Below are positions 32,091-33,717 of a DNA stretch of 33,717 bases, piece after piece. Location of the stretch: positions 1 to 33,717 of the forward strand of contig JAISYF010000071.1 in NCBI GenBank assembly GCA_031270065.1, in the 5' to 3' direction. The position numbers and the translations under genes are program-made. Below the pieces are notes generated by a model. That model saw nothing but the letters and a program-made list of their open reading frames with translations, made no database searches and had not been told where the DNA came from. The stretch is from Prevotellaceae bacterium. GTDB taxonomy: Bacteria; Bacteroidota; Bacteroidia; Bacteroidales; Paludibacteraceae. Every line of letters begins with the position of its first letter. Position 1 is the stretch's first letter.

Positions 32091-32122
32091 CAAATTTTTT
32101 TTAAAAAAATCACAAAAATATT

Positions 32123-32152
32123 TTGTAGTTTCAAAATAATGTTGTAATTTTG
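32123..32152 (+). promoter_or_regulatory. Promoter of the 32.2-32.5 kb non-coding segment
   Basis: TTG at 32123-32125, exactly 19 bases, then TAATTTTG at 32145-32152. It is among the best -33/-7 matches in the window, yet no convincing coding frame starts within the next several hundred bases. Confidence 0.7.
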
Positions 32153-32415
32153 TGGCGTGGAGAGATAATATAACCACTGAAAGCAGCCTGCGTATGGTTG
32201 CAGAACTTCATACATGTGCTTTGTGCAGTTTTTAAGTTTAGCAGACAGCAAAGATTTGTAATAACGTTTCTTTTTCAGTTATCACTATTTTCTCAAAATA
32301 AAGTGCACTTTCAAAAAATAAAAAATTTATTACATAGTTAAAATAAGATTTCTGATAACTATCGGAACTGATAGTTATAAAAATGCTGTATAGCAAAAAA
32401 TAAAATGCATTCTTA

Positions 32416-32511
32416 GTCCTCGAAACTACCACTTTCGGACATACAAAGAATAAGCATACCACAAAAGTGGGCTTGTTCATTTGTATGTTGGTTGTGGTAG
32501 ACCTTGAGGAC
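32416..32511 (+). ncRNA. Long interrupted hairpin (five stacked stems)
   Basis: The stems, from the outside in, are GTCCTC/GAGGAC (32416-32421 with 32506-32511), CTACCAC/GTGGTAG (32426-32432 with 32494-32500), ACATACAAA/TTTGTATGT (32439-32447 with 32480-32488), GAA-t-AAGC/GCTT-g-TTC (32448-32455 with 32471-32478) and CCAC/GTGG (32459-32462 with 32467-32470) capped by AAAA. Internal loops are GAAA opposite ACCTT and TTTCGG opposite TGGTT. About 33 pairs in 96 bases is far beyond chance in this AT-rich sequence. The overall shape recalls 6S-like RNAs but it is shorter than the well-known ones; identity is unproven. Confidence 0.6.
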
Positions 32512-32538
32512 GGATAATAAGTCCGTTTTTTTTATTTT
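32506..32538 (+). terminator. Intrinsic terminator overlapping the long hairpin
   Basis: ACGGA/TCCGT (32510-32514 with 32522-32526, 7-base loop) can be extended outward by G-U and A-U pairs and is followed by eight T. The 5' arm shares bases with the outermost stem of the long hairpin (GAGGAC, 32506-32511), so the two structures compete in part, as in an attenuator. Confidence 0.65.
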
Positions 32539-32783
32539 CAAAAATTCAACAACAGCCAGACTGTTACTATTATATAAACAGAATTGCAACTGTTTCCCCA
32601 AAAATAGCAATGTGAAACTGCAAAAACACATAAATCATTGTGCAGAAAGAGCGGAGACTTTTAAAAACGGGCGGATTTTTATCGAAAAGCCAAATGAGTA
32701 GAGAAAAAAACTTATTCAAAATCTTATAAACTAAAAATAATAAACAACAAGATTCTGAATAAAATTATAGGAGGAACTATAAA

Positions 32784-33086
32784 ATGAAAAAATCATTAAT
32801 GATTTTAATAGCAGTTATCTGCTTTGGTTTAATGTTGTCTTGCGAAAAAGATGAATTGACAGGTACAACTTGGAAATATAGCGAGAATTTTGGCGATGAG
32901 TTTTCCATTATGGTAACTTTTTTGACGAAGAGTACTTTTATTTTGACGGAAGATTACGACACAACTTACGGTACTTATACTTATGAAAAACCCAATGTGA
33001 TTTTTGAATCAGGTGGAGTAACTTGGGTAGGCACAATCTCTGGCAATATAATGATAATGGAAGGAATCGCACTTATGAAGCAGTAA
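32784..33086 (+). CDS. Small lipoprotein, lipocalin-like beta-rich domain
   Basis: 100 aa. MKKSLMILIAVICFGLMLSC gives a lipoprotein signal with the acylated cysteine at 20. The mature part opens DELTGTTWKYSENFGDEFS and continues in short strands (FLTKSTFILTEDY, TTYGTYTYEKPNVIF, VTWVGTISGNIM), a layout common in small Bacteroidota lipoproteins with a lipocalin/META-like half-barrel. It has AGGAGG nine bases before the ATG, a strong Shine-Dalgarno sequence that no other gene in this window shows. It has a good terminator. No -7 box was found close upstream. Its position between a structured non-coding stretch and Rpn gene pieces suggests an accessory, possibly acquired, gene. Function unknown. 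Confidence 0.75.
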   Translation: MKKSLMILIAVICFGLMLSCEKDELTGTTWKYSENFGDEFSIMVTFLTKSTFILTEDYDTTYGTYTYEKPNVIFESGGVTWVGTISGNIMIMEGIALMKQ

Positions 33087-33428: not shown

Positions 33429-33717
33429 TTATTTTAGAGTTTGGAGTTCTGATATAGATAAACCTGTGAATTTAGAAATTGTTTCAACAGGTATATTTTC
33501 GTTCAACATATTTATTGCAACTTTTTCAATGCCTTTTTCAATGCCTTTTTCAAAACCTTTTTCAATGCCTTTTTCAATGCCTTTTTCAAAACCTTTTTCA
33601 ACTCCTTCTGCAAATTTTCCTTCAACAAGCATATTTTCACGGCGAACTTCGTCCCAATATTTGTCGTAAGCGATGCGTTCAGCATCGGTGTATGCAGCCT
33701 CTTCGCAAAGATTTAAT
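33429..33717 (-). CDS. C-terminal part of an Rpn/PDDEXK_2 family nuclease-transposase (runs off the window)
   Basis: The frame is open from the right edge to TAA at 33431-33429, about 95 residues visible. It opens LNLCEEAAYTDAERIAYDKY, the typical region after the nuclease core, then has an EKG-rich tract (GFEKGIEKGIEK twice) and ends NENIPVETISKFTGLSISEL, the usual C-terminal helix-turn-helix-like tail. An ATG at 33632 lies inside the frame and is not the true start. Rpn proteins are PD-(D/E)XK DNA endonucleases linked to RecA-independent recombination and, more recently, phage defence. Whether this copy is complete cannot be told from here. Confidence 0.85.
   Translation of the reverse strand, partial: LNLCEEAAYTDAERIAYDKYWDEVRRENMLVEGKFAEGVEKGFEKGIEKGIEKGFEKGIEKGIEKVAINMLNENIPVETISKFTGLSISELQTLK
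33520..33603. repeat. Seven 12-bp tandem units inside the Rpn gene
   Basis: Units of CCTTTTTCAATG or CCTTTTTCAAAA on the plus strand are arranged as a 36-bp higher-order repeat present twice, plus one further unit, encoding (F/I)EKG-type repeats. The 12-bp period keeps the frame when copies are gained or lost. Confidence 0.9.

Follow-up and report, generated by a model that had tools for sequence, protein, structure and literature searches.

A folded segment upstream of a lipoprotein gene

The locus studied here raises the question of what a long, strongly folded non-coding segment does upstream of a lipoprotein gene that starts at 32784. The segment lies in a contig of 33,717 nt (JAISYF010000071.1), which was analysed over its whole length and is called the window below. 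The initial annotation read it as a promoter-to-terminator unit of about 380 bases without a credible gene, ending in an interrupted hairpin of 96 bases (32416-32511) and a T8 terminator, and proposed that it could be a 6S-like RNA, a novel small RNA or an attenuating leader for the lipoprotein gene. Indeed, no credible gene was found in 32160-32535, the T8 tract is present 3' of the hairpin, and the hairpin itself is well founded: 32405-32535 has a fold energy of -54 kcal/mol compared with -25.5 kcal/mol for shuffled sequences (z -8.0), and none of 200 shuffles was equally stable.

The remainder of the proposed unit was confirmed only in part. The promoter, which had been called near-perfect (32123-32152), does match TTTG-N-TAnnTTTG, but six matches of this kind occur in the window where chance predicts 2.85, and a count of six is reached in 6 of 100 shuffles. 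The match is therefore at chance level and is a possible promoter only. In most relatives a promoter box lies 58-110 nt before the hairpin, and the box of the window is about 264 nt away. Moreover, although the hairpin and the T8 tract are real, the 380-base unit is composite, because 32211-32263 is a degenerate half-copy of a palindromic repeat that is dispersed through the window's genome and has a full copy at G000:C1:8252-8372; the conserved part of the unit begins near 32400. The repeat consists of TCGGACAGGTGTTTTGTGCAGTTTGTATGTTTAGCGGACAGC and its complement, and more partial copies were seen on contigs C105 and C7.

The outer stem of the hairpin had also been thought to compete with the terminator arm. 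The two folds do compete, but the outer stem and the local terminator arm ACGGAT have just 2 nt in common. As judged from base pairing, the true competition is located at the hairpin tip, where the strand 32467-32477 can give up its own 5' partner and instead form 11 pairs with the tail (32516-32526). The features of the region are listed in Table 1.

Table 1 Features of the candidate switch and its surroundings in the window
Feature	Position	Strand	Remark
Bacteroidota-type promoter match, TTTG / TAATTTTG	32122-32152	+	Possible; 6 window matches vs 2.85 by chance
ATTACATAG, apparently what is left of a mini-ORF (AUG-ACA-UAG in relatives) after loss of the AUG	32329-32337	+	Relatives have ATGACATAG/ATGACTTAA/ATGAAATAA here
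Upstream hairpin P0 (ATAACTATC/GATAGTTAT)	32355-32378	+	Relatives have hairpins of different sequence in the same place
Mini hairpin GCTGTATAGC	32385-32394	+	Counterpart of AGCGTT..GCT in relatives
Strand 1 (AUGCAUUCUU), partner of strand 2	32405-32414	+	Arm-swap test; 12 pairs when the 5' half of the window is folded
P1 5' strand	32416-32423	+	Helix 1: compensatory change in 9/9 pairs across the family
HP-A 5' arm (UCGAAA)	32420-32425	+	
P2 5' strand = HP-A loop (CUACCAC)	32426-32432	+	P2 100% paired, 7/7 pairs compensatory
HP-A 3' arm (UUUCGG)	32433-32438	+	
P3 5' strand	32439-32447	+	Covariation, helices 3 and 4
Strand 2 (P3b + P4 5' strand), partner of strand 1 or strand 3	32446-32462	+	Helix 5 covariation, swap and fold tests
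Strand 3 (P4' + P3b': GUGGGCUUGUUC), partner of strand 2 or strand 4	32467-32478	+	
P3 3' strand	32480-32488	+	Covariation
HP-B, GGU (UGUGGUAG) ACC, 8-nt loop including the P2 3' strand (32494-32500)	32490-32503	+	95% paired
P1 3' strand	32504-32511	+	Covariation
Local terminator stem ACGGAU..GUCCGU	32510-32526	+	Present in only part of the family
Strand 4 (AAUAAGUCCGU) = terminator 3' arm, partner of strand 3	32516-32526	+	At least 6 bp in 130/135 members
U-tract of intrinsic terminator	32526-32533	+	
Element resembling DUF805 RNA (RF03081), a second leader element 3' of the switch and 5' of the gene	32641-32708	+	40.6 bits, sub-threshold
Lipoprotein gene (MKKSLMILIAVICFGLMLSCEKDE..), presumed target	32784-33086	+	No Pfam family

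The hairpin belongs to an RNA family absent from Rfam

A scan with Rfam 15 gave no match above cut-off at the hairpin, and no family reached its cut-off anywhere in the window. Even at E 10 the hairpin matched no family, including 6S, 6S-Flavo and Bacteroidales-1, and no Rfam match was found at the hairpin in 27 checked loci, relatives included. A 6S RNA is not supported, in view of this result together with the many copies per genome and the missing central open bubble: the fold consists of stacked helices and small loops instead of a large central bubble, and occurs in up to 24 copies per genome rather than one or two.

DNA similarity searches in relatives recovered terminator-like fragments only, except in one genome (G025), which contains several hairpins with the same type of terminator; their sequences diverge, and each of them alone folds into the same architecture. 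A covariance model (R1) built from three G025 copies, with the window excluded, recovered the window at 65 bits (E 2.9e-12) as well as the other copies. It matched 18 of 61 relative genomes, the highest number per genome being the 24 copies in G025. With a second model of 67 members, the RNA was detected in 141 of 200 sampled Paludibacteraceae genomes (28 of 33 genera) and, more widely, in 76 of 247 genomes sampled from the order and 13 of 198 from the phylum. Among the named carriers are Alistipes senegalensis and genomes of Bacteroides, Prevotella, Odoribacter, Rikenella and Muribaculaceae. Some copies are clustered on one contig, and none of the 26 viral contigs that share a 17-mer has the RNA. 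These data place the hairpin and T8 tract of the window in a family of structured RNAs that Rfam lacks. No description of the family was found in the main texts of the openly available literature, and the family may already be listed as an anonymous candidate.

Covariation of the nested fold and its complementary loops

According to the initial annotation, homologues without compensatory changes in the stems would speak against the RNA. In the 67 aligned members, compensatory change was instead found in 34 of the 35 pairs of helices P1-P4. These helices are paired in 96% of the alignment cells, compared with 64.5% after shuffling and at most 43% after sliding, and their covariation score is 0.744 against 0.194; the alignment was fitted to the model, but the margin over both controls is large. 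The conserved features are mostly the helices and the GGU/ACC and GAAA/UUUC arms.

P2 is crossed by two further hairpins, HP-A and HP-B. HP-A encloses the P2 5' strand and has a loop of 9 nt; its stem is 85% paired, whereas sliding gives at most 59%, and it shows 32 two-sided changes where shuffles give 11.4. HP-B encloses the P2 3' strand and has a loop of 8 nt; its short GGU/ACC stem is 95% paired (sliding gives at most 52%) and shows 9 two-sided changes where shuffles give 0.8. P2 itself comprises 7-8 bp, is 100% paired and has 99 two-sided changes. Since the P2 strands are the loops of HP-A and HP-B and pair fully, the two loops are complementary. HP-A and HP-B may kiss with both stems standing or may stand in alternative states.

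Three mutually exclusive helices precede the U-tract

In 130 of 135 members, strand 4, the arm just before the U-tract, can form at least six contiguous pairs with strand 3, which is the 3' side of the apical stem. Swapping arms between members, a control that contains no phylogeny model, lowers the mean 3:4 score from 20.8 to 16.5 (sd 0.29). The excess over the swaps is also seen within Paludibacteraceae alone and within other Bacteroidales alone, and is weaker in the 16 distant members (20.25 versus 18.86, largest swap 20.5). When folded by itself, the 3' half forms the 3:4 terminator in 119 of 136 members, including the window. The 3:4 helix abuts the U-tract, and the U fraction over the last 7 nt is 0.76.

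Strand 1, located just 5' of P1, is complementary to strand 2, the 5' side of that apical stem, with a score of 16.07 compared with 14.11 (sd 0.24) for swaps made likewise without phylogeny, and beats every swap in all three taxon groups. Clear 1:2 exchanges include AUCUCGU/ACGAGAU, AUCCUG/CAGGAU, UUCUUGA/UCAAGAA and CAAUUUAGA/UCUAAAUUG. The 5' half folded by itself gives 1:2 in 130 of 136 members, which is supportive but modest evidence because shuffled upstream strands still give 89-102. By these pairing tests, 1:2, 2:3 and 3:4 are three mutually exclusive helices, as in a classical attenuator.

The long hairpin has a mean energy of -58 kcal/mol compared with -42 kcal/mol for the two separate halves. 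Because the long hairpin is therefore favoured at equilibrium, an off state has to depend on kinetics or on a factor. Many, if not most, Paludibacteraceae copies, including that of the window, have the extra local terminator stem, which could halt transcription in either state; the attenuator model explains this stem incompletely.

The RNA is mostly followed by genes for putative secreted proteins

The gene context was determined with a simple ORF caller and a heuristic signal-peptide test. The next ORF is co-oriented at 101 of 109 loci (Paludibacteraceae 52/58, other named genomes 34/35, distant genomes 15/16), with a median gap of about 80 nt. By the crude signal-peptide test, 71 of the 101 co-oriented ORFs look secreted, compared with 22% of background ORFs. 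Several copies have a start codon as close as 0-25 nt behind the U-tract, so that transcription of the gene has to come through from the leader. In L083, L097, L095 and L101 the AUG follows at 0-14 nt, which leaves no room for another promoter.

This arrangement bears on whether the RNA acts as a leader or as a free molecule. A stand-alone trans-acting sRNA, 6S-like or base-pairing, would be released as a transcript of about 120-200 nt with the gene merely as its neighbour. Although the strong structure, and in many copies the upstream promoter box and terminal U-tract, would suit such an RNA, we consider it unlikely in view of the close, co-oriented next gene, the start codons right behind the U-tract, the divergence among the up to 24 copies and the 6S comparison above. 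Thus, the novel small RNA of the initial annotation is new as an RNA, but the evidence favours a cis leader over a free sRNA.

Within the cis readings, there is also a small probability that the leader acts mainly on translation or mRNA stability, with the sequence past the U-tract pairing back to the 5' leader and gating the start codon. In eight copies (L079, L116-L120, L122 and L125), 9-11 bp with compensatory changes can form between the P0 3' arm and the bases that follow the U-tract, and in some copies the start codon is no more than 25 nt from the U-tract. The RNA structure may thus extend beyond the terminator in these eight copies. Over all loci, however, the P0-to-post-U-tract closing helix shows no excess (15.5 versus 15.0 for swaps, sd 0.33), whereas almost every member has the U-tract and the terminator arm.

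Several other features of the neighbourhoods were observed. In distant genomes (f29, f27), SusC/SusD pairs lie downstream, and the opposite flank often carries a divergent HTH gene. At L138, L139, L140, L142, L147 and L151, this HTH gene, where present, is followed by methylase- or ATPase-like genes, as in an exchange hotspot. An ECF sigma gene and then a gene for a Cas12f-like protein of about 365 aa (recognised by eye; no Pfam family) lie behind the switch at L145 (8261-10130) and L148 (5947-7859). The window gene at 32784 and the genes at L070, L072, L082, L086, L091 and L125 have a near-identical signal peptide (MKKYLMILVAVIGFGLSANA) but differ in their mature parts, a pattern reminiscent of a module of leader and signal peptide. 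At the end of the window contig, a minus-strand ORF (33429-33716) carries tandem TTTTTCAATGCC/TTTTTCAAAACC repeats that give a short amino-acid repeat; it belongs to no Pfam family.

Between the hairpin and the gene, the DUF805 RNA model (RF03081) matched 32641-32708 with 40.6 bits (E 8.5e-6), below its gathering score of 51.1, and a second search gave E 6.6e-6. The model did not match 32416-32533; the sole significant match under relaxed filters is this separate element. The match falls within a second conserved element of about 150 nt between switch and gene (GACGACGG..CCGCCAC..ACAGAATTGCAACTGTT..), present in the window (32553-32708) and at L070, L077, L081, L082, L086, L091 and L107, with DUF805 RNA as its 3' part. 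The Rfam DUF805 model thus seems to cover only the 3' part of this element, which may be a second leader element in tandem.

A mini-ORF lies upstream of many Bacteroidales copies

An AUG-NNN-stop mini-ORF is found about 65 nt upstream in many Bacteroidales copies. Of 108 upstream regions, 47 contain a G(C/A)(C/T)NAUG motif, in most cases at a distance of 54-74 nt from P1. An in-frame stop within three codons follows 39 of 49 motif AUGs, whereas the other frames give 2 and 7. Such a bias towards one frame speaks in favour of translation. Its codons and stops vary (AAA-UAA, GUA-UAG, GCA-UAA, ACA-UAA, AAC-UAC-UAG). The AUG is gone in the window, and no mini-ORF was seen in the distant copies that were read; therefore, the mini-ORF is not a universal sensor. 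It is a lineage feature and a likely, though not general, input of the switch, and a conserved ORF of one to three codons suggests a link between the switch and ribosomes in Bacteroidales.

A proposed transcription attenuator

Based on the homologues, the covariation, the mutually exclusive helices and the gene context, the RNA is probably a four-strand transcription attenuator, off by default, that forms part of the lipoprotein gene's leader; this is the third of the roles suggested in the initial annotation. We infer its folding order during transcription, its direction of control and its read-through as follows. The 5' half would emerge first and pair strand 1 with strand 2, capped by HP-A. 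Strand 3 would then be free for strand 4, and the 3:4 helix, capped by HP-B, would form the terminator and keep the gene off. Occupation of strand 1, or opening of the 5' hairpin, would let 2:3 form and the 5' half zip onto the 3' half as P1-P4, leaving strand 4 without its distal partner and allowing RNA polymerase to read through. This strand exchange probably starts with a kissing contact between the complementary loops of HP-A and HP-B.

Beyond this locus, it is possible, and we suggest it tentatively, that the family constitutes an unrecognised class of RNA switch that is ancient and Bacteroidota-wide. In such a class, hairpins with complementary loops would zip into a long antiterminator, one shared signal would govern much of a variable surface and secreted set (lipoproteins, SusC/SusD, small HTH regulators and ECF sigma operons), and an AUG-NNN-stop ORF would report ribosome status in Bacteroidales. 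If this is true, dozens of surface and secreted genes per gut, rumen or environmental Bacteroidota genome share one Rfam-unlisted switch, which would explain the silencing or co-regulation of variable surface genes, supply a ready regulon list for any genome and offer a bistable RNA for folding studies. Moreover, ribosome signalling from a two-codon ORF would become a directly testable question.

Two further readings carry very little weight. The RNA could be the guide of a Cas12f/TnpB-like regulator, such as dCas12f with an ECF sigma factor, as two copies (L145 and L148) lie 230-270 nt upstream of sigma and Cas12f-like genes. We judge this highly improbable: the protein occurs in G326, G318 and G303 (working query) but was not found in the searched Paludibacteraceae genomes, so the RNA is most probably not its guide; nor was the protein found in five f29 genomes that have the RNA beside SusC/SusD genes, no variable 3'-end guide was seen, and the Cas12f identity was assigned by eye, with Pfam giving no family. 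A DNA-level element that merely resembles an RNA, namely an attC-like recombination site or an inserted palindromic repeat, is equally far-fetched, since the multi-copy hairpins of variable sequence, the palindrome remnant and the clustering of copies on one contig would accord with it, but G-U pairs, the U-tract, the fixed orientation to the gene, the alternative helices, the promoter box and the mini-ORF fit an RNA, and attC core sites were not seen by eye.

Comparison with known regulatory RNAs

Among structured RNAs of Bacteroidota, 6S-Flavo (RF01685) and Bacteroidales-1 (RF01693) differ from the attenuator proposed here in copy number and architecture, in line with the Rfam search. The DUF805 RNA, a motif that reportedly derives from a 2017 survey, is likewise a multi-copy Bacteroidota leader element and lies 3' of the switch in the window, but it is a separate 68-nt element with no sequence or structure in common. 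Purine and lysine riboswitches also have a compact conserved domain before a terminator and loop-loop complementarity. In contrast, the complementary loops here are located in two halves that refold, and the interior loops are variable. The resistance gene tetQ of CTnDOT is controlled by translational attenuation with a three-codon leader peptide. A very short leader ORF before a structured leader is thus common to tetQ and the Bacteroidales copies, whereas the RNA described here has a U-tract terminator and precedes many unrelated genes.

The closest parallels are the trp/his/leu-type attenuators and the Bacteroid-trp motif (RF01692). In contrast to them, the upstream ORF here has one to three codons and no run of regulatory codons, and is missing from the window; the targets are surface and secreted proteins rather than amino-acid biosynthesis; and a large P1-P3 domain with complementary loops occurs in many copies per genome with no Rfam match. 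No leader peptide was found that would place regulatory codons over strand 1; the ORF lies about 65 nt before P1 and has varied codons, and because of this the RNA is not assigned to the trp type. In common with these attenuators, however, a short ORF lies upstream in many copies, 1:2 and 3:4 exclude 2:3 among three exclusive helices, and 3:4 is a predicted intrinsic terminator, followed by its U-tract, in the leader of the gene.
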